IMG/VR virus record: IMGVR_UViG_3300030109_000416
Coordinates: 1-32,681 of that record
Direction: 5' to 3' (one strand)
DNA: 32,681 nt
Origin: a virus
The notes under the pieces: generated by a model
Told to the model about the DNA's origin: nothing
The model's database searches: none
Seen by the model: the letters and a program-made list of their open reading frames with translations, nothing else
Made by a program: the position numbers and the translations under genes
In this document: in pieces, positions 4,343 to 32,681 of the stretch
Numbering within the stretch: the stretch's first letter is position 1
Layout of the letters: each line of letters opens with the position of its first letter

Positions 4343-7314
4343 TGGTTCAAAGAGTAATTAAACAAAAGACACAGTTTAGAAATAATCCTGTTGGATTAAC
4401 AAAGTTTAATAGTGTTGATGCAGGTAAGTCACAAGCAATAATAAATTTAGCAGGTCAAGCTAAACAAATTATTGAAGAAGTTCGTATTCCTCAAAGACAA
4501 CAAGAAGCAAAACAAGATGCTGCTGCATTAACAGTAGAAGATCTTTTAAATACTGATGAAGAAGGTAATCCAACTGTTGTAAATACTGACCACCTAAGAG
4601 GTAAGGGAAGTGTATATTCTAGAACATTTAAAGAAAGTGTTTTATCTAATCAGTATGATGCTATTGAAAATAAAATAGGTTCTAAGTTTGCTTCACTTGC
4701 AGCTGCAAATAAATTTACATCTAATGGTGTAGCACAGTTTGAAGCTGAAGCATCTAATTTTTTACTTGAATTATCTCAAAAATTAAAAGGTAATCTTGAA
4801 GTTTTTGCAGGTAACGCAGGTAAACAAAAGTTACTTGATACAAGTGCTGCATTACAAAATGCAAGAGCAGCAAGAACATATCAACAAACACATGAAAAAG
4901 CAGTTGAAGGATTACAATCAGAAATAAATAATTTACGAGTAAGAATTATTAATGGTGATTTGGATGGTGAAGGACAATTTGTTAATTCATCAGATGCTAA
5001 AGTACAAGAGTTTCTTAATGCTCCTAATGGTATTCTTGAAAGATTAGAACGTACTAAAGAAGGTCCATTTAGAAAACAAGCAGAATTAGATTATCAAAAG
5101 TTTAAGGGTATGCTTGGTATTAATAGTTTAAAAAAATTAACAAGTACACTTACTCGACAACAACAAACTCTTGTAAATAAATTTCTTAATAATGAAGATG
5201 GAGTAAAACTTCATAATTTAAAAGACGAAACTGGTAAATATTTTGTTCCTAAAGAAATACATGAAGATATAAAAGCTTTTATTGCTATTGATGATTTACC
5301 TTTTAGAAATCAAATGATTAATGATATTAAGCAAACATATACAAAAGCAATTCAAGATAAGTTAATTAATAATAATGAAGAACAACTTGAAGTAAAATTA
5401 AGTATAAGTGAATTAATTACTACATCTTCAAGTGAAACTATAAGTGATATTACAGAAAATATAACAGCAGGAGGAAGTGATTCTTTTTTTCTTAGAGGAT
5501 CATCAGGAGATATAGATCGTGCTACTAAAGAATATATGGCAAACTTTGAAAATAAACTTAGATCAAATCCTCTTTTTAAAACTTTAAGCACTCAACAAGT
5601 AGAAAACATTCTTACAGCAGAACGACAACAAGCACCTACTCGTCTTGCTCAAACATTTATTCAACAGTCAATGATCTCTAATAATTTAACAAAACCACAA
5701 AAACAAATGCTTGCTATGTGGTTACGCAATGATGATGAAAATCAAAAAAAAGCACTTATAAAATCATTAACTGAAGGAAGAGAAGATTCTTTAAATATAG
5801 AAGGTTTAGATAAAAAATCATTTCTTGGAATGATTTCTATGTTAGATGATTATAAAAAATCAAACAGAACAAAATCATCTTATGAGCAATTTTTAAAAAC
5901 AGTTAGTAATGCAAACGATCAATATAAAGAAATAAGTGATGCTGAACGAAAAGATATAGACCGATCAATAATAACATCTGAGGTTGGACAAAATATACGT
6001 CAATCAAAAACACAACAAGAAAATCCTGATTTATTAGAAGAAGTTTTAAATGAAACACAGTTATCTCTTATACAATTAACACCATCTGATGTTCAAGAAT
6101 TTATAAAAGATATAGATAATAATCATTTTTTATCTGAAAATAATTTAGATTTAATCAAAGCATTTTTAAATAACCCAAGTAAGTTTGAGCAAATGGCAGT
6201 AGGTCAAGGTGTAAATCCTGAACAGGCATTTAATCAAATGGCATCAATATTAAATACATTACATGCATTACCTAATTTAGAATCAGGTAAGCCACAAGGT
6301 CAAAGTCTTATTCATAAAATTAATAATAATGAATGGAGAAAAGAGTTATCGTTTGATGTTGAAAGAGTTACATCTTTATTTGGAGCATTAAATGCTTATG
6401 GCGATGTTGGAGCTATGAAAGAAATTATAAATAATGTTAAAGAAAAAGTTTATAGAAATGCAACTTCAACTGTATTTGGTGATCCATCAGCTAAAATAAT
6501 ATCTGATATAATAGATAGAACTAAATATCCTGAAGCAGAAATACAAGCAGAGTACAATGAATTCTTTGATGCTATATCTCATGCAGTAAATAAAACTTTT
6601 ACTATGAGAGGTGGCTTTCAAGATGAAGATCAATTAAATGAAGCTGTTCAAGAAAAAGTTAAAGAAATTTTTCTACAGAAAATAGAACTAGATTATAAAC
6701 CTCCACATAGATTTCAAACTGATTTAAATGGAGCGCAGAGAGTAGATAAGGTTGGTCCACTTATGCGTAACTCTTTAGATGTTTTATTACCAGAAGGTGA
6801 TGCAAGAAGAAAAGAATTTTTTGCAGTAGCAAATATAGAGCTTGCAACAGTTAATGCTCCATCTATACAAAATGTTACTGACCAAGTTAAGTATACATTT
6901 GATTATGATCGTGAATTAAATATCTGGAAAAATAATGGTGGAGAAGAAAAGTTATTTCCATTTAGAAAAGCAAGGCTATTAACTGTTTCTGCTTTTGGTG
7001 CAAACCCAATTTTTATTGCTGTTGATGAAGATAATGAAGTTATATTGTGGAGAAAAAATTCTCAATCAGAAGAAGATTATTTAATGTGGACAATAGAAGA
7101 AATAAATACAACACCTCCTAATTTATTACCTGAGGAAGATTTAACAAACTTTACTATTCGCAAAACAGAAGAAGAATATAATTTATTAATGAAAGATAAA
7201 ATTAAAGAAAAAGCAAAACCAGAAGATGTTCTTAAGAAGAAAGGTTTTGAAAAAGCATTTCGAGATGGCAAGATTACAGAAGAAAAATATCTTGAATTAA
7301 TTAAGGATTTATAA
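4342..7314 (+). CDS. Internal virion protein, medium (T7 gp15-like)
   Basis: A 990-residue, mostly helical, Gln-, Asn- and Lys-rich protein without obvious enzyme motifs. It lies between the small and giant internal proteins, as gp15 does in T7 (747 residues), so it is probably the middle ejection/core protein. The N-terminus RVIKQKTQFRNNPVGLTKFN resembles internal core proteins of marine podoviruses. The C-terminus is highly charged (KGFEKAFRDGKITEEKYLELIKDL). TAATG couplings join it to both neighbours. Assignment depends largely on size and gene order. Confidence 0.68.
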   Translation: MVQRVIKQKTQFRNNPVGLTKFNSVDAGKSQAIINLAGQAKQIIEEVRIPQRQQEAKQDAAALTVEDLLNTDEEGNPTVVNTDHLRGKGSVYSRTFKESVLSNQYDAIENKIGSKFASLAAANKFTSNGVAQFEAEASNFLLELSQKLKGNLEVFAGNAGKQKLLDTSAALQNARAARTYQQTHEKAVEGLQSEINNLRVRIINGDLDGEGQFVNSSDAKVQEFLNAPNGILERLERTKEGPFRKQAELDYQKFKGMLGINSLKKLTSTLTRQQQTLVNKFLNNEDGVKLHNLKDETGKYFVPKEIHEDIKAFIAIDDLPFRNQMINDIKQTYTKAIQDKLINNNEEQLEVKLSISELITTSSSETISDITENITAGGSDSFFLRGSSGDIDRATKEYMANFENKLRSNPLFKTLSTQQVENILTAERQQAPTRLAQTFIQQSMISNNLTKPQKQMLAMWLRNDDENQKKALIKSLTEGREDSLNIEGLDKKSFLGMISMLDDYKKSNRTKSSYEQFLKTVSNANDQYKEISDAERKDIDRSIITSEVGQNIRQSKTQQENPDLLEEVLNETQLSLIQLTPSDVQEFIKDIDNNHFLSENNLDLIKAFLNNPSKFEQMAVGQGVNPEQAFNQMASILNTLHALPNLESGKPQGQSLIHKINNNEWRKELSFDVERVTSLFGALNAYGDVGAMKEIINNVKEKVYRNATSTVFGDPSAKIISDIIDRTKYPEAEIQAEYNEFFDAISHAVNKTFTMRGGFQDEDQLNEAVQEKVKEIFLQKIELDYKPPHRFQTDLNGAQRVDKVGPLMRNSLDVLLPEGDARRKEFFAVANIELATVNAPSIQNVTDQVKYTFDYDRELNIWKNNGGEEKLFPFRKARLLTVSAFGANPIFIAVDEDNEVILWRKNSQSEEDYLMWTIEEINTTPPNLLPEEDLTNFTIRKTEEEYNLLMKDKIKEKAKPEDVLKKKGFEKAFRDGKITEEKYLELIKDL

Positions 7315-14632: not shown

Positions 14633-14908
14633 ATGGCTGAAGCAAGAACAACAGAACTTAAAGCACGAAATTATGCAGCAATGCTTGATGGTGCTAATGT
14701 TATTACAACCGTAATAGCAACGTATGACAAGGGCAATAACGCAACAAGTGATGATTTTGCACATGAAATGACCCATGACGAAAAGAAAGCCAGAGTGTCA
14801 CGTTCAATGGGTTATCTTAAACATATGGTTGCTTTAGATGATTGGGGTTCAGAGGATATGACTAAAGTAAATGCTGCAATTACAGCAGGTACAACTTTTG
14901 TTGGATAG
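14633..14908 (+). CDS. Conserved small protein after the tail fibre, unknown function
   Basis: A 91-residue soluble protein with a strong ribosome site (AAAGGAGATAACCA before ATG). It contains an alpha-helical charged middle (ATSDDFAHEMTHDEKKARVSR) and no membrane span or cysteine motif. Its place directly after the fibre and before the oxygenase-like gene is compatible with a fibre assembly partner or minor tail protein, but nothing in the sequence proves this. Its last 38 bases overlap the upstream end of the next reading frame. Confidence 0.65.
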   Translation: MAEARTTELKARNYAAMLDGANVITTVIATYDKGNNATSDDFAHEMTHDEKKARVSRSMGYLKHMVALDDWGSEDMTKVNAAITAGTTFVG

Positions 14909-15551
14909 TACAGAACTACAACTTATTCCTAGACAACTTCCAAACTTAGGTGTGGTTGAAGGTATGTTGCCAAAAGATATTATGGATAATATTTGGAAGC
15001 TCGTGAAAGAAGCAAAGAAAAAACCAGACAATATGAAAAGTGAATTAGCAGGTAATATTAACTCTAGTATACGATTAGATACACAATCACCTTTTCTTGC
15101 AGATTTTATGCAAGATATTTTACCTGCGTTTATTAACAATCATATTCAATCTTATGGTGCGCCTTGGCGAGCTACAATGCAAAAAGATGATCGATGGAAT
15201 TTAGAAAGTTTTTGGGTAAACTTTCAGAAGAAGCATGAGTTTAATCCACCACACGATCATGGTGGTTTGTTTAGTTTTGTTATCTGGTTGCAGATACCTA
15301 CGTCTTATCAAGAACAAAAGAAATTGCCGATAGCTGTTGATTCTAATGCAGATAATCACATATCTAACTTTGCTTTTACTTATACAGATATATTAGGCAA
15401 GATTAAAACTTTTGCTTACAACATGGAAAAGGAAGCTGAGGGATATATGGTTATGTTTCCATCACAGCTTTTACATCAAGTCTTTCCTTTCTACGAAAAC
15501 AAAGGAGAGCGTATTTCAATCTCAGGAAATATAGATATTAAGGGAGTTTAA
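14871..15551 (+). CDS. 2OG-Fe(II) oxygenase-like protein
   Basis: Up to 226 residues. The C-terminal half carries a double-stranded beta-helix oxygenase signature: FNPPHDHGGLFSFVIWLQ with H128 and H130, then FPSQLLHQVFPF with H202, and R214 in ERISISGN. These are the expected iron ligands and the 2-oxoglutarate-binding Arg. It resembles the phage family often annotated as putative 2OG-Fe(II) oxygenase, whose substrate is unknown. The start is uncertain. ATG 14871 overlaps the previous gene by 38 bases, TTG 14901 would begin just before the conserved LQLIPRQLPNLGV, and ATG 14964 would cut into it. The second ligand is His rather than the usual Asp. Confidence 0.78.
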   Translation: MLQLQQVQLLLDSTELQLIPRQLPNLGVVEGMLPKDIMDNIWKLVKEAKKKPDNMKSELAGNINSSIRLDTQSPFLADFMQDILPAFINNHIQSYGAPWRATMQKDDRWNLESFWVNFQKKHEFNPPHDHGGLFSFVIWLQIPTSYQEQKKLPIAVDSNADNHISNFAFTYTDILGKIKTFAYNMEKEAEGYMVMFPSQLLHQVFPFYENKGERISISGNIDIKGV

Positions 15552-16314: not shown

Positions 16315-16511
16315 CACCAGAATATTTAGACAAGTGGAGAATTATACCTAGACTTATTATGTTAGCTTTAATTGTTATGACATTTAGAGTTATCGAATGG
16401 TTTATTTCTTTACCTGATCCCTCACTTGAGCAAGCAGCATTACCATCTGTTATGACAGGTGCATTAACTGGTGCTTTTGCTGTGTTTCTAGGAAGTGGAA
16501 AGAAAGAATGA
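16311..16511 (+). CDS. Holin-like small membrane protein
   Basis: A 66-residue protein with two predicted membrane spans, residues 13-34 (IPRLIMLALIVMTFRVIEWFI) and 44-62 (LPSVMTGALTGAFAVFLGS), and a short charged C-terminus (GKKE). This layout matches class II holins. It is coupled by ATGA overlaps to the 34-residue peptide before it and the three-span holin after it. A holin makes holes in the inner membrane at the end of infection so that the lysozyme can reach the wall. It may instead act as an antiholin, since a second holin follows. Confidence 0.65.
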   Translation: MTPEYLDKWRIIPRLIMLALIVMTFRVIEWFISLPDPSLEQAALPSVMTGALTGAFAVFLGSGKKE

Positions 16512-16909
16512 GTATAGTTGCAAATCTAATTGGTCCTGTTACTGGTCTGCTTGATAAGTTTGTGGAAGATAAAGATCAGAAAGCAAAGCTTGCACATGAG
16601 TTAGCAACAATGGCTGACACTCATGCACAGCAGTTAGCTCTTGCCCAGGTGCAGGTAAACTTAGCAGAAGCACAATCTGGTTCTGTGTTTAAAGGTGGGT
16701 GGCGACCTTTTGTTGGGTGGGTGTGTGGCATTGCATTGCTGTATCATTTTATTTTAACTCCTTGTATCTTGTTTGGTGTAGCTTTGTTAGGTATAGATAT
16801 ACCACCACTACCTGCGTTTGACATGAGCAGTTTGTTAACTGTGTTAATGGGTATGCTTGGGTTAGGTGGGTTAAGAACATTTGAAAAGACTAAGGGAGTA
16901 AGCAAATGA
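16508..16909 (+). CDS. Three-span holin (GTA_holin_3TM type)
   Basis: A 133-residue protein matching the 3TM holin family known from gene-transfer agents and alphaproteobacterial phages. It has an N-terminal helical region (LIGPVTGLLDKFVEDKDQKAKLAHELA), the conserved GGWRPFVGWVCGIALLYHFIL starting near residue 62, a second hydrophobic span around 83-97 and a C-terminal span (LLTVLMGMLGLGGLRTFEK). It should permeabilise the inner membrane and release the lysozyme. It overlaps its neighbours on both sides by four bases. Confidence 0.82.
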   Translation: MSIVANLIGPVTGLLDKFVEDKDQKAKLAHELATMADTHAQQLALAQVQVNLAEAQSGSVFKGGWRPFVGWVCGIALLYHFILTPCILFGVALLGIDIPPLPAFDMSSLLTVLMGMLGLGGLRTFEKTKGVSK

Positions 16910-21120: not shown

Positions 21121-21349
21121 GTACATTTCCCATGAAATATTCTTTGATACGCTTGCCATTATCAAGAGTAATCCAAATACTATCAACAGGAAAACCTTGA
21201 TCTTTTAACTCTGATAATCTTCCAGATAATCGAAAGCAACCAAACTCATTAAGTGCAGATAAAGCAGTTAGTCTTTTACCTGCTTCAAAATGTGCTTTGA
21301 TTAATTTATTTTGAGATAAAGTTTTTTTCTCATTAGGATTGTAGTTCAT
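21113..21349 (-). CDS. Helix-turn-helix DNA-binding protein (HTH_39-like)
   Basis: A 78-residue protein. NKLIKAHFEAGKRLTALSALNEFGCFRLSGRLSELKDQGFPVDSIWI fits the HTH_39 family: a first helix, the TALSALNEFGCFRLSGRI-type turn and recognition helix, then a wing ending DNGKRIKEYFM. It starts at ATG 21349 with the shared AGGAGAACACAC leader. Such small proteins are common in phage early operons and may regulate transcription or aid replication. No lysogeny genes are present, so a repressor role in lysogeny is unlikely. Confidence 0.75.
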   Translation of the reverse strand: MNYNPNEKKTLSQNKLIKAHFEAGKRLTALSALNEFGCFRLSGRLSELKDQGFPVDSIWITLDNGKRIKEYFMGNVHD

Positions 21350-21767
21350 GTGTGTTCTCCTTGTTGTTTGCTAATGCGTACATGGTTACATCATACCTTA
21401 TCTTAGAATTAGGAGCTGGCATTAGCTTGATAAGTTCACCTCGTCTTACAGCATGATATAATTTTGAAGTTACAGCGTTTGATGGTTCACCTAAACGTTC
21501 ACCTATCTGCCTAGCTGTTAAGGCATTAAACTTTTTTAGCAAAGAAACAATTCGATAATCTTTCTTACCAAATGTTTGTTCGTTTCTTTTTACATCACAT
21601 GGCAAAGGATACTTACGTTTTCCTTTCATAAACCTTTCACGTTCTATATCTGTTTGCCATGTGCTAAATCTTTCTGCCAATTCATCTGCAAGTTTTTTAG
21701 GTAGCTTGCTTATTATGTCCTGTGTTTTTTGACAGTAATAAGATTTAAAATACTGCTCGAGTCTCAT
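21333..21767 (-). CDS. Winged-helix DNA-binding protein
   Basis: A 144-residue basic protein. Residues 72-118 (RIVSLLKKFNALTARQIGERLGEPSNAVTSKLYHAVRRGELIKLMP) form a likely winged helix-turn-helix, with the wing leading into KIRYDVTMYALANN. The N-terminal half (DIISKLPKKLADELAERFSTWQTDIERERFMKGKRK) is helical and basic. It may be an early regulator or a replication accessory protein. It overlaps the gene before it by four bases and the next by 17, and its C-terminus NKENTHELQS covers the shared ribosome site. Confidence 0.65.
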   Translation of the reverse strand: MRLEQYFKSYYCQKTQDIISKLPKKLADELAERFSTWQTDIERERFMKGKRKYPLPCDVKRNEQTFGKKDYRIVSLLKKFNALTARQIGERLGEPSNAVTSKLYHAVRRGELIKLMPAPNSKIRYDVTMYALANNKENTHELQS

Positions 21768-26801: not shown

Positions 26802-26995
26802 TGGCTTGGCTTCACAAACTATCGCAGGAAGATAGAAACATTCTAAGGACTGTTGTAAAACAGGTACACATGAAACACTTTCCAAAAGATTTCTGTACTG
26901 ATTATGAAGCTGATAAATTAATCTCTTCCCTAGCTCCTTCTACTTTAGAAAAGCTAGAGAAAATAGGGAAGGACTATAAGGTTGATAGAATTTAA
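26801..26995 (+). CDS. 64-residue protein before the terminase large subunit
   Basis: The protein begins MAWLHKLSQEDRNILRTVVKQ and continues with VHMKHFPKDFCTDYEADKLISS. The first 45 residues resemble a small conserved protein directly before the terminase in marine phages. It is helical and charged. Its last 14 bases overlap the terminase start, which uses TTG, so translation is probably coupled. Confidence 0.65.
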   Translation: MAWLHKLSQEDRNILRTVVKQVHMKHFPKDFCTDYEADKLISSLAPSTLEKLEKIGKDYKVDRI

Positions 26996-28499
26996 GTACA
27001 AGCCTGATGGTCAGGTACTTAAAGACTTTATGCGTGATGATACTTTCTTTCGTGGAATAAGAGGACCAGTAGGTAGTGGCAAGTCTGTTAGTTGCTGTGT
27101 TGAAGTCTTTCGCAGATCATTAATGCAAAAACCAAATAAAGATGGAGTTCGTAGAAGTCGGTGGGCGATTATACGAAACACCAATCCTCAGTTGCGAACC
27201 ACCACAATAAAGACTTGGCTTGATTGGTTTCCAGAAGATGAGTGGGGAAAGTTTATGTGGTCTGTACCATTTACGCATCACATTAAAAAAGCTGATTTGG
27301 ATATGGAGATTTTGTTCTTAGCTCTTGATCGCCCAGAAGATGTAAAGAAACTTCTATCATTAGAACTTACTGGTATATGGATTAACGAAGCAAGAGAAAT
27401 ACCAAAGAGTATTATTGATGCGTGTACCATGAGAGTTGGTCGTTATCCTTCTATGCGAGAAGGTGGACCAAGTTGGTCAGGAGTTATTGCAGATACTAAT
27501 GCACCAGAAGAAGATCATTGGTGGGCAATTATGTCAGGGGAAGTACCTATACCAGATCATATTCCAATAGATCAAACTCGTATGTTAGTTAAACCTGATA
27601 ACTGGAACTTCTATTCTCAGCCTCCTGCTATGGAAGAAAAGCTAACAGACGAAGGTACAGTTGATAGTTATCAGGAAAGTTCTAAAGCAGAGAACAGAAG
27701 GAATATGCTTAAAACATATTATCCTAACTTAGTAAGAGGTAAAACGAAAAGTTGGATTGATGTTTATGTTATGAATCGACTTGGAACTATACAGGAAGGT
27801 AAACCTGTGTATCCACATTTTGTAAGCGAAACACATATAGCTACAGAAGAAATACCTATTGCTGTTGGTGTTCCTTTGTATATTGGAGTTGATTTTGGTT
27901 TAACTCCTGCTGCTGTATTTGGTCAGAAGGTAAGAGGTCGATGGCTTATACAGTCAGAGATTGTAGCTATTGATATGGGGATAGTTCGTTTCTCAGAACT
28001 TCTTAGACAGGAAATAGCAACACGCTTTGGTAATCTTGAAGTGCATATCTATGGCGATCCTGCAGGAGACTTTAGAGCGCAGACAGATGAAAGCACACCA
28101 TTTCAAATATTAAGAGGTGCAGGACTACGAGCAACACCTGCTCCAAGCAATAGTGTAGACCTAAGATTAGAAGCTGTTTCTTCTCAGCTTAATAAAATGG
28201 CAGATGGTAAATCTGCTTTTTTAGTTGACCGACGATGCCCAAGTCTGATAAAGGGTTTTGAAGGTGGTTACGCCTACAAAAGAATACAAGCCTCTGGAGA
28301 ACGATACGATGATAGACCAGAAAAGAATATGTATTCACACATACATGATGCCTTACAGTATTTACTTATTGGTGCAGGGGAAGGTAGAAGTCTAATGAAT
28401 AATCAAAAGATGGCAATGCCTTTTCAAGCTCGTACAGGATTTGATGTATTTAAACGTAAGCCCACTGCTCAACGTAAATCATTTTGGTCGAGGATGTAA
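26982..28499 (+). CDS. terL: Terminase large subunit
   Basis: The 505-residue packaging motor ATPase and nuclease. The Walker A motif GPVGSGKS is at residues 28-35 and the Walker B-like LELTGIWINEARE has E136. The C-terminal RNase H-like nuclease shows YIGVDFGLTPAAV with D304, HIYGDPAGDFRAQ with D359 and SHIHDALQYLL with D456. It cuts concatemers and pumps DNA through the portal. It starts with TTG at 26982 (GGGAAGGA upstream), overlapping the previous gene. No ATG is available before the conserved N-terminal VLKDFMRDDTFFRGIRG. Confidence 0.95.
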   Translation: MIEFKYKPDGQVLKDFMRDDTFFRGIRGPVGSGKSVSCCVEVFRRSLMQKPNKDGVRRSRWAIIRNTNPQLRTTTIKTWLDWFPEDEWGKFMWSVPFTHHIKKADLDMEILFLALDRPEDVKKLLSLELTGIWINEAREIPKSIIDACTMRVGRYPSMREGGPSWSGVIADTNAPEEDHWWAIMSGEVPIPDHIPIDQTRMLVKPDNWNFYSQPPAMEEKLTDEGTVDSYQESSKAENRRNMLKTYYPNLVRGKTKSWIDVYVMNRLGTIQEGKPVYPHFVSETHIATEEIPIAVGVPLYIGVDFGLTPAAVFGQKVRGRWLIQSEIVAIDMGIVRFSELLRQEIATRFGNLEVHIYGDPAGDFRAQTDESTPFQILRGAGLRATPAPSNSVDLRLEAVSSQLNKMADGKSAFLVDRRCPSLIKGFEGGYAYKRIQASGERYDDRPEKNMYSHIHDALQYLLIGAGEGRSLMNNQKMAMPFQARTGFDVFKRKPTAQRKSFWSRM

Positions 28500-28501
28500 T
28501 C

Positions 28502-28936
28502 ATGTGTAAAAGTCGAAGAAGAAGAAAACAATCTAATGCTCAAACTGGAATGACAGATGATGAAATGCGTGCTGAGATTGCAAGACTTAATGAAGAAACA
28601 AGAAGGATTCAAGCTAATACAGCTACAATACTTGCAGAAACAGAAGATATAAAAGCTGGTCAAGCAGGTACAATTATGAAAGAAGAAACAGCAGCACAAT
28701 CTACTGTAAGTTTAGATCAGCAACTTGCAGCTTTGGGTGGTTCTCAACAAGCTATAGCTGATATACAACAGGAAACTTTTCAAGAAGTTAAAGGTGCTAC
28801 AGATAAAGAGAAAATGGAAATTCGTAAAAGAAAAGAACAACAGTTACAAAGGGCGATTCGTCAAAGAAGAAAGTCAGGTTTTCAAGGTAGACGATCTTTA
28901 ATTACAGGACAATCTGGTGGTAGAGGATATGCTTAA
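28502..28936 (+). CDS. Small structural-region protein with a GRRSLITG motif
   Basis: A 144-residue protein. It has a basic start (MCKSRRRRKQSNAQTG), a long amphipathic helix (EMRAEIARLNEETRRIQANTATILAETEDIKAG), another charged helix and the C-terminal motif GFQGRRSLITGQSGGRGY, found at the end of many phage small head/neck proteins. The start is ATG 28502 with GAGG upstream; an earlier GTG in the same frame lacks a proper site. It lies between terminase and portal, overlapping the portal start by one base. Function is unproven. Confidence 0.7.
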   Translation: MCKSRRRRKQSNAQTGMTDDEMRAEIARLNEETRRIQANTATILAETEDIKAGQAGTIMKEETAAQSTVSLDQQLAALGGSQQAIADIQQETFQEVKGATDKEKMEIRKRKEQQLQRAIRQRRKSGFQGRRSLITGQSGGRGYA

Positions 28937-30525
28937 TGGAAATGATGGACGGTTCATTTGTAACAGATGATAATGTTAAATCATTATTAAGTCGTTATGA
29001 AAAAGCAACACATATAAAAGATCAGTTTAAAGATTTGTTTGAAGAGTGTTATGAAGTAGCATTTCCTCAACGAAAAGGATTCTATACAGAAACAATAGGT
29101 GAGCGTAGAGATGAAAAGATATTTGATGAAACTTGTGTCGTGGGTGTTCAGGAGTTCGCCTCAAGACTCCAACAAGGACTTGTCCCAAACTTTGCAAGGT
29201 GGGCAGACTTCCAAGCAGGTTCGGAAACCCCCAAAGAAGAAAAAGAAGCGATCAACAACGAACTCGACGAAGTAACAGAATATGTTTTTGAGGTATTACA
29301 AAACTCAAACTTTGCACAGGAAATACATGAATCCTTTATGGACTTAGCTGTTGGTACAGGAATACTTGGTGTAGAAGAAGGCAATGCTTTAAATCCAATT
29401 AACTTCTCAGCTATTCCTTTAACAGATGTAGTTCTTGATACAGGACCAGACGATAGAATAGATCATGTGTTTCGTGAAAGAGAAATGCGATATTCAGATT
29501 TACCTAATCAATATCCCAATGGACAATTTAATACTGAGTTGCTTAATGCAATTACTTCACATCCAGATACAAAAACTAAAGTATTAGAAATAGTTTGCAG
29601 AGATTATTCTAAAAAAAATGAAGATGCTTTTACACAAACAACAATACATGAGAAATCAAAGAGTGTAATAGATCACAAAGAGTTTAAAGGTGTAGGGTCT
29701 AATCCTTTTATTTGTTTCCGTTGGTCTAAATGTGCAGGAGAAATCTATGGTCGAGGACCACTTATGAATGCTCTCTCTGCTATTAAAACATCAAACTTAA
29801 CAATACAATTAATACTTGAGAATGCACAGATGGCTATCTCTGGTATTTATCAAATGGACGATGACGGTGTTGTTAATCCAGATACAATATCATTAATGCC
29901 AGGGACTATTATACCTAAAGCACCTAATAGTGCAGGACTGCAACCCATAAGGGCAGCAGGTTCTTTTGATGTTGCACAGCTTATTCTCTCAGATATGCGT
30001 TTGAATATTAAGAGAGCTTTGTATAATGATATGCTTGGTAATCCAGATCGTACACCTGCATCAGCTACAGAAGTTGCAGAACGTATGGCTGATTTATCCA
30101 GACGTATTGGTTCTGCCTTTGGACGATTGCAAGCTGAGTTGGTACAACCTGTATTGCAAAGAGTTGTGTATATATTAAAGAAGCAAGGACGTATAGAACT
30201 ACCTACTATTAATGGTAGAGAAATAAAAGTAAGGTCTGTTTCTCCATTAGCACAAGCACAGAATCAAGCAGATATTACTTCTATTGCTCGTTGGATGGAA
30301 TTAATACAAGCTAACTTTGGTCCACAATTATTAAATCTTTTAATTGATAGCGAAGAAACTGCTACTGTATTAGCTAAGAAGTTTGGTGTTCCTGATACTC
30401 TTATTAGAGATGAAGAACAAAGAAAACAGCTTATACAAATGGCTCAACAGATGGCAGAAAATAGAGGACAAAATATAGAACAACAAATGGTAGAAATGGG
30501 TGGAGGTCCAAATGTCGGGCAATAA
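28936..30525 (+). CDS. Portal / head-to-tail connector protein (T7 gp8-like)
   Basis: A 529-residue protein that forms the twelve-fold ring through which DNA enters and leaves the head; T7 gp8 has 536 residues. The family signatures are present: FEECYEVAFPQRKGFY at 33-48, the EFASRLQQGLVPNFARWADFQAG segment near residues 73-95, CFRWSKCAGEIYGRGPLMNAL near 260 and the C-terminal PEATEVAERM-type stretch (PASATEVAERMADLSRR). A 132-base patch inside (29137-29268) uses unusually C-rich codons. The start TAATG overlaps the previous gene. Confidence 0.92.
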   Translation: MEMMDGSFVTDDNVKSLLSRYEKATHIKDQFKDLFEECYEVAFPQRKGFYTETIGERRDEKIFDETCVVGVQEFASRLQQGLVPNFARWADFQAGSETPKEEKEAINNELDEVTEYVFEVLQNSNFAQEIHESFMDLAVGTGILGVEEGNALNPINFSAIPLTDVVLDTGPDDRIDHVFREREMRYSDLPNQYPNGQFNTELLNAITSHPDTKTKVLEIVCRDYSKKNEDAFTQTTIHEKSKSVIDHKEFKGVGSNPFICFRWSKCAGEIYGRGPLMNALSAIKTSNLTIQLILENAQMAISGIYQMDDDGVVNPDTISLMPGTIIPKAPNSAGLQPIRAAGSFDVAQLILSDMRLNIKRALYNDMLGNPDRTPASATEVAERMADLSRRIGSAFGRLQAELVQPVLQRVVYILKKQGRIELPTINGREIKVRSVSPLAQAQNQADITSIARWMELIQANFGPQLLNLLIDSEETATVLAKKFGVPDTLIRDEEQRKQLIQMAQQMAENRGQNIEQQMVEMGGGPNVGQ

Positions 30526-30781
30526 CTTTATTTCTCTTGATGGGTTTCAAAGAAATCGTATTGATGATTCTCGTATTAGTGTAAATACAGCTTCGTTATT
30601 TAATACAGATTTAGGACAGGAAGTATTTAAATATTTAAAAAGTATTACTATAGATGCTGTTAATGGTCCTAATGTTACAGACGCAGAGTTGCGTCACCTC
30701 GAAGGTCAGCGATATATAGTTGGCTTAATAGATCGAAGAATCCAACACGCACATAAGGTGAAAAATGAACGAGCAAGTTGA
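30512..30781 (+). CDS. Bbp19-like small protein between portal and scaffold
   Basis: An 89-residue protein. LNTDLGQEVFKYL-like and AELRHLEGQRYIVGLIDRRIQHAHKVKNERA segments fit the small Bbp19-like phage family, which commonly lies between portal and scaffold genes and has no settled role. The start is ATG 30512, five bases after GGAGG (30502-30506). A GTG at 30500 is inside the ribosome site. It overlaps the end of the portal gene by 14 bases and the scaffold start by 17. Confidence 0.7.
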   Translation: MSGNNFISLDGFQRNRIDDSRISVNTASLFNTDLGQEVFKYLKSITIDAVNGPNVTDAELRHLEGQRYIVGLIDRRIQHAHKVKNERAS

Positions 30782-31544
30782 ACAGAATACAGTTGCAGAT
30801 GTAATGGAAAAGAATGAATCAACAGAAAATGTTTCACGTGAAACATCTGTTGATGCAGCAATAGATACTGTTGCACCAGTTGAAAGACCAGAATGGTTGC
30901 CAGAAAAGTTTACTAAAGCAGAAGATTTAGCTAAGTCTTATACTGAATTAGAAACTATGGTTGGTAAAAAAGAAGAAGAGTATCGTGATAAGTTTCAAAA
31001 AGAATTAGAAGAAGAAGCTTTTAAAGATAGACCAGAATCAAAAGGTGAGTATGTAATTAGTGAAGAAGCACAAAAGCTTTTAGATATGGGTGCTGTTACA
31101 GATAACAAATTATTAGAATGGTGGTCACAAACTTCATTTGAAAATGGATATAACCAAGAAGAATTTAATTCTGGTATTATGATGTACTTAGAACAAATAA
31201 GTGAAACACTTCCTAATCCAGAACAGGAAATGCAAAAGCTAGGTGACAATGCAAATGTAAGAGTTGAAGCTGCATCTTTATTTGCTAATCAATACTTTCC
31301 TAAAAACTTAATCTCTACAGTTGAATTACTTGCATCAACAGCAGAAGGTGTTCAAGTATTAGAACATATTCAAGAACAAACAAAAGGAATAAATGTAAGT
31401 TCTCCTTCTCAGCCTATTAATCAAATTAATGAAGCACAGCTTCGTGATTTAATGGCATCAGATGAATATCATAATCCAACAAAAAGAAATCCAGAAGTAG
31501 TAAGGCAAGTTGAAAGTGGATTTAAACAATTATATAAATCGTGA
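30765..31544 (+). CDS. Scaffolding protein (T7 gp9-like capsid assembly protein)
   Basis: A 259-residue acidic, helical protein. ERPEWLPEKFTKAEDLAKSYTELETMVGKKEEEY at 40-73 is the common scaffold signature, followed by a Glu-rich body and a C-terminal helix ending VVRQVESGFKQLYK, the usual capsid-binding end. It directs capsid assembly and leaves the head before DNA fills it. It is located between portal and capsid, as in T7. Codons 22-27 (NVSRET) carry a perfect parS palindrome. Confidence 0.85.
   Translation: MNEQVEQNTVADVMEKNESTENVSRETSVDAAIDTVAPVERPEWLPEKFTKAEDLAKSYTELETMVGKKEEEYRDKFQKELEEEAFKDRPESKGEYVISEEAQKLLDMGAVTDNKLLEWWSQTSFENGYNQEEFNSGIMMYLEQISETLPNPEQEMQKLGDNANVRVEAASLFANQYFPKNLISTVELLASTAEGVQVLEHIQEQTKGINVSSPSQPINQINEAQLRDLMASDEYHNPTKRNPEVVRQVESGFKQLYKS
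30829..30846. promoter_or_regulatory. parS: Perfect parS-like ParB-binding palindrome
   Basis: The 18-base perfect palindrome ATGTTTCACGTGAAACAT contains TGTTTCACGTGAAACA (30830-30845), identical to the consensus bacterial chromosomal parS site bound by ParB. It lies in the scaffold gene, in frame as NVSRET. No ParA or ParB is encoded in the window, so it would be bound by host ParB if it acts. Confidence 0.75.
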
Positions 31545-32064: not shown

Positions 32065-32145
32065 GCGACCCTATTGGACAATCGTGTTAAGGTGAGGATC
32101 AGATAACCAGAGATACCATGAAACTTAATATAAGGAGGTTTGCTA

Positions 32146-32681
32146 ATGGCAAACACAATAGACACAGCCTTTATTAAGCAGTTTGAATCTGAAGTGCATC
32201 TTGCTTATCAGAGAATGGGATCGAAACTACGAAACACCGTTCGTACAGTAAGTAATGTTGCAGGAAACATAGTTCGTTTTCAAAAAATCGGTTCTGGTTC
32301 TGCTTCAACAAAGTCTAGAAACGGTATGATTACTCCAATGGAGTTAGCGCATACCACAGTAGAAGCTACAATGTCTGACTTCTATGCTGCTGAGTACATT
32401 GATAAGTTAGATGAACTCAAGACAAACATAGATGAAAGACAAGCTGTAGCTAAATCGGCAGCTGCTGCTCTTGGTCGTAAGACAGATGAAATTCTTATTA
32501 CAGCTATGGATGCAGGTGCTAATTCAACTCAATTACATGACGCCAGTTCAGCTGTTGAAAAAGCAGATTTACTTTCTGCCTTTGAAACAATGGGTGCTGC
32601 AAATATACCTGAGGATGGACAGCGATATATTGCTATGCACCCTAAAGGTTTTGCAGATTTATTTCTCATTACTGAATTTGC
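32146..32681 (+). CDS. Major capsid protein, N-terminal part (continues at 1-406)
   Basis: The first 178 residues of the capsid subunit (MANTIDTAFIKQFESEVHLA, then QRMGSKLRNTVRTVSNVAGN). The pattern resembles the small capsid proteins of marine podoviruses. A strong AAGGAGG (32132-32138) lies seven bases before the ATG. The reading frame runs to the end of the window without a stop and matches the frame at the window start, giving 270 residues in total. The 81-bp gap before the gene shows no convincing promoter or hairpin. Confidence 0.88.
   Translation, partial: MANTIDTAFIKQFESEVHLAYQRMGSKLRNTVRTVSNVAGNIVRFQKIGSGSASTKSRNGMITPMELAHTTVEATMSDFYAAEYIDKLDELKTNIDERQAVAKSAAAALGRKTDEILITAMDAGANSTQLHDASSAVEKADLLSAFETMGAANIPEDGQRYIAMHPKGFADLFLITEF
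32553..32681. repeat. Terminal redundancy, right copy
   Basis: Matches 1-129 with four silent differences at 32604, 32610, 32613 and 32640. Circularising at this overlap gives about 32,552 bp. Confidence 0.93.

Follow-up and report, generated by a model that had tools for sequence, protein, structure and literature searches.

A host-type parS sequence in the scaffold gene of a probably lytic phage is a candidate site for host ParB

The window, which is the whole stretch of DNA analyzed here, is a record of a single virus contig of 32,681 bases with a GC content of about 0.35. When its end was joined to its start, an open frame of 317 amino acids ran through the joined ends, in the region of the major capsid gene (~32080-32681 plus 1-406), so the genome is probably complete and circularly permuted. 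Its late operon contains the following features, including a copy of parS, the site at which ParB loads onto DNA:

26982-28499, plus strand: terminase large subunit gene (PHROG 2), in the same late operon as the portal gene
28936-30525, plus strand: portal (head-tail connector) gene, the upstream neighbor in the late operon (PF12236, E 1e-94)
30765-31544, plus strand: scaffold (capsid assembly) gene of 259 amino acids (PF05396, T7 capsid assembly, E 4e-6)
30829-30846, no strand assigned: 18-bp perfect palindrome ATGTTTCACGTGAAACAT with parS within it, the longest palindrome of the genome
30830-30845, no strand assigned: parS core TGTTTCACGTGAAACA, an exact match and identical to the parS in rsmG of the likely host

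Read in frame, parS encodes NVSRET and occupies codons 22-27 of the scaffold gene, within a variable N-terminal linker. A PHROG search of the scaffold assigned no family to it. Nine-base arms ATCAACAGA and TCTGTTGAT flank parS (30818-30826 and 30846-30854) and give an extended RNA or DNA hairpin over 30818-30854.

The window site matches the 16-bp palindromic consensus TGTTTCACGTGAAACA exactly (consensus as in PMC7383237), and the second-longest perfect palindrome in the genome is 14 bp compared to 18 bp at parS. A sequence-only reading of the window had placed an exact parS and an 18-base palindrome inside the scaffold gene, and both were confirmed at 30830-30845 and 30829-30846, respectively. 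Its estimate of 1 in 10^5 also agrees with the 0.8-1.2e-5 exact copies per genome that we computed under independent-base models and Markov models of order 1-3. Across the whole window, no further match to parS was found with up to 3 mismatches allowed. Chance origin of the site was rejected, as 1e-5 copies are expected, yet the site recurs across several lineages. In the IMG/VR collection, at least 120 contigs carried parS and 11 carried a control palindrome with the same composition and the same CG center, an excess that is only suggestive because the collection contains prophages and probably some host fragments.

The closest relative of the phage by portal and terminase was Pelagibacter phage EXVC031P Hodr (61% and 63%, respectively), which together with the GC content of about 0.35 makes a SAR11 (Pelagibacteraceae) host likely. 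A direct host link was also sought in SAR11 genomes, where only portals of ~25% identity were found. A Pfam scan of 38 window ORFs returned no ParA, ParB or integrase, bearing out the earlier remark that neither ParA nor ParB was visible, and it identified ERF and YqaJ recombination proteins, a holin and a lysozyme. The phage is probably lytic. Other genes in the window encode a 2OG-Fe(II) oxygenase (14871-15551), a GTA-type holin (16508-16909) and a weak sigma-70 region-4-like protein (21333-21767). The locus tags in the Hodr record (L122, OQ414635.1) bear the name of another phage, EXVC032PBaldr, and the labels may be swapped.

Canonical parS occurs essentially once per genome in Pelagibacteraceae. 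The exact 16-mer was present in 14 of 26 genomes in a first set, and the 16-mer with at most one mismatch was present in 65 of 118 genomes in a second set, counts that come from collections in which many genomes are incomplete single-cell assemblies. Host mismatches were confined to bases 1/16, 2 or 5 (or the mirror positions), and the central CACGTG was invariant. At 14 of 15 host loci inspected, the site lay close to the start of rsmG and read VSRET, in the frame that the phage also uses; the remaining locus had a variant site in an unrelated gene. Most host sites are flanked by A and T, as in the phage 18-bp palindrome, and the one SAR11 locus that was fully read has the gene order mnmG, rsmG (with the site), parA, parB. 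The phage and rsmG copies therefore share the 16-mer, the reading frame, VSRET and an N-terminal position, but the phage copy sits in a scaffold gene that by eye shows no similarity to rsmG outside the site.

SAR11 ParB matched Caulobacter ParB (6t1f) with an E value of 1e-56. The residues of ParB that distinguish parS from NBS recognition have been described (PMC7383237), and in our alignment SAR11 ParB has R173 and G201, which are of the parS type, with A at position 179, S at 184 and K at 204. SMC_N matches were obtained in all eight SAR11 genomes tested (G013, G031, G048, G043, G052, G099, G089 and G134), in a frame of ~857 amino acids, and the Pfam SMC hinge model had no match in the same eight genomes. 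The hinge of SAR11 SMC may be diverged, and on these sequences recruitment of SMC by the phage site is possible.

Homologues of the scaffold were collected mainly through protein homology. Two carriers of the exact site, L053 and L111, entered through a scan for exact parS and are biased in that respect; the remaining exact carriers used came by protein homology, through which the other members of the window's clade, L277 and L445-447 were entered. The exact site lies at +62 or +65 nt of the scaffold gene in the window's clade, at +44 nt in L277 (43% amino acid identity), at +44 nt in L053 and L348, and at +50 or +62 nt in L445-447, which are relatives of Hodr. The linker around parS varies in length and flanking residues, and these indels notwithstanding the site stays between +44 and +65. 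In a scaffold tree of 88 rows, exact parS occurred in three clades set apart from one another by many lineages that lack the site, a pattern that would fit either repeated gain or a single old gain followed by many losses.

The sequence-only reading turned on whether relatives keep NVSRET while freely changing its silent bases, and comparison of the scaffold genes gave the opposite outcome. In each of the 21 homologues that have V[SP]RET, V is encoded by GTT, R by CGT, E by GAA and T by ACA, with TCA for S and CCA for P, whereas at other conserved scaffold residues the codon identity between representatives was only about 37-77%. With codon usage in these genes taken into account, one independent draw would yield the full shared codon set with a probability of about 0.008; kin sequences do not count as independent draws, but at least four lineages that are well diverged agree on it. 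As judged computationally, codon fixation and recurrence show that selection acts on the DNA sequence.

Substitutions in intact phage variants were limited to the outermost base 1 or to T5C (TGTTCC), and the central CACGTG was kept. Three members of the L053 group were changed at base 1 only (CGTTTC.. or AGTTTC..). A distant homologue on a contig with a GC content of 0.53, L393, carries TGTTCCACGTGAAACA at +32 nt of the scaffold gene, read as VPRET in the same region, and this site may have been gained independently by a phage that infects a different host.

The site was also lost through a 9-bp deletion in L128/L129, and its center is broken (CACATG) in L130/L134. Within the Hodr subclade (L122, 5018-5033; L402-L440), several broken-center versions lie at the same scaffold position and read NVS[HNQ]ET or NVPQET; the natural variants of the Hodr type are TGTTTCACATGAAACA, TGTTTCAAATGAAACA and TGTTTCACAAGAAACA. 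Among the SAR11 genomes inspected, none had one of these broken-center forms as its rsmG parS. The decayed and deleted copies suggest that some lineages can do without the function. The expectation that relatives keep the site held for the exact copies in three clades and failed in some close relatives, where it is decayed or lost. The proposed search in other marine podoviruses indicated that the site is not general, and a general pelagiphage feature was rejected, as none of 16 pelagiphage isolates from other groups carried it with up to 2 mismatches. The Methylophilales phage MEP301 was likewise without the site, and no isolate bearing an intact site was found, Hodr being the sole close match among the matches listed.

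Exact parS was also observed on other low-GC viral contigs. One contig (L042) has two copies in a single repeat-like ORF (6704-6779), in another (L021) the copy at 107-122 overlaps a start codon (MFHVKQ), and a 201-kb contig (L068) has two copies in short ORF-free places at 4944 and 5819.

By far the best reading of the 16 bp, and one that we consider very probable, is that they are a selected site for host ParB. This reading draws on a sequence that is identical to the host site, on codons that are fixed, on substitutions that match those tolerated in host parS, and on the return of the site in lineages that lie apart in the tree. A further argument for host ParB is that SAR11 genomes have this same parS essentially once each, within rsmG and beside parAB. 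From these sequence comparisons we strongly infer that host ParB binds the phage site. That diverse relatives have kept or repeatedly acquired the site suggests that the phage uses the chromosome-sorting protein of its host.

During infection, host ParB-CTP clamps would load at the site and slide across the adjacent late (head) genes. The partition complex would then pass the DNA of the phage on to the host's ParA, perhaps also to SMC, and phage genomes would thereby be kept on the nucleoid and distributed like the host centromere. A non-integrating phage genome could in this manner be retained in slow-growing cells during delayed lysis, and the phage site would also pull ParB off the host's own single parS. 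We see this whole explanation, comprising loading, spreading and partition via host ParABS, as evenly balanced between right and wrong. That partition or tethering of phage genomes is the main benefit, as argued by analogy to phi29 and SGI1, is a plausible proposal that falls a little short of an even chance. It is doubtful that the host's single centromere was installed independently several times in the same scaffold spot, with ParB loading serving both partition in delayed lysis and copy-number timing of the head genes, an arrangement not described before.

Phage phi29 uses host Spo0J (ParB) to enter spores, according to the work of Meijer et al. (2005) as cited in PMC9437464. When we scanned phi29, four parS sites with one mismatch each were found (TGTTTCACGTGGAACA). 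Like the window phage, phi29 carries host-type parS without its own ParAB, its sites are partly inside late structural genes, and it is virulent, as the window phage probably is. In contrast to the four sites of phi29 and their use in spore entry, the window phage has one perfect site, in a scaffold gene, and its likely host is non-sporulating; the phi29 trait of multiple parS per phage genome is thus absent here.

A second parallel is SGI1, whose parS mimics hijack the ParABS system of an IncC plasmid, such that SGI1 is partitioned by the helper plasmid and also destabilizes it (PMC10954446). Both are parasite elements with copies of another replicon's parS, through which they can become more stable and damage the replicon that owns it, but SGI1 depends on a plasmid ParB and a different site, whereas the phage site would engage the ParB of the host chromosome. 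P1 and the extrachromosomal prophages of mycobacteriophages (PMC7157519) have their own partition systems. In these phage-plasmids and mycobacteriophages, too, the phage genome bears a site resembling a centromere, but they encode their own partition proteins along with the site; with no Pfam match to ParA or ParB in 38 ORFs, the window phage does not belong to the class with self-encoded ParABS. A literature search, which was noisy due to word-start matching on 'parS', found no paper tying pelagiphages or SAR11 to ParB or parS.

The benefit of binding ParB could instead be takeover of the cell, if replicating phage copies of parS titrated ParB off the single parS of the host and thereby stopped segregation and division. 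Since the host has essentially one parS per genome, a few phage copies would exceed it, and the effect of SGI1 parS copies on the helper plasmid is dose-dependent (PMC10954446). However, a subtle segregation defect would be of little gain to a lytic phage, and a single site per genome would be a weak sponge early in infection, making such a decoy unlikely as the main benefit.

The site could also time late gene expression, with loaded ParB restraining the head genes at low phage copy until replication dilutes ParB, in effect a copy-number sensor. The position of the site in the late operon, close behind the portal gene and not far into the scaffold gene, would suit this role, as would the loading and sliding of ParB on DNA (PMC8367383 and PMC7053999) and the ability of Pseudomonas ParB to repress promoters close to parS (PMC5521831). 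We nevertheless hold this role to be rather improbable, as no promoter-like site was found on the coding strand around parS. The effect of ParB on elongating transcription is also usually modest.

Explanations that do not involve ParB fared far worse. If the scaffold required the NVSRET peptide and the palindrome were a by-product, the recurrence of the peptide and the survival of NVSxET forms where parS is broken would be accounted for, but the V[SP]RET codons would not be fixed in 21 of 21 homologues. The peptide is moreover deleted in L128/L129 and missing from most homologues, and the neighboring residue (N, D, E or L) and the S or P vary while the DNA is still a legal parS. A protein motif is thus very improbable and was rejected on the grounds of codon identity, variable neighboring residues and the L128/L129 deletion. 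Similarly slim is the prospect that the scaffold mRNA forms a hairpin by which its translation or stability is controlled. The window segment does fold better than shuffled sequences (z -2.77), aided by the arms at 30818-30826 and 30846-30854, but the extended stem is found only in the closest relatives; L053, L348, L350 and L393 carry parS or one of its legal variants and lack this fold, and the hairpin was rejected because parS carriers beyond the closest relatives do not keep the stem. A site for a phage-encoded regulator that merely resembles parS has hardly any probability, for although a winged-helix protein (PF14090) and the weak sigma-70 region-4-like protein are encoded, the lone site lies away from any promoter, is identical to host parS and tolerates the same substitutions as host parS.

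A selected site for host ParB is thus the reading we prefer, and a selected host-type parS in this phage suggests that host chromosome partition is used directly by a probably lytic phage outside Bacillus. Hodr, with its naturally broken copy at the same position, provides a natural control for comparison. The scaffold gene further illustrates that the variable linker within a structural gene can maintain a DNA centromere site as an almost silent passenger. No bacterial group is more abundant in the surface ocean than SAR11, whose cells grow very slowly, and the site may bear on how SAR11 phages persist in them.
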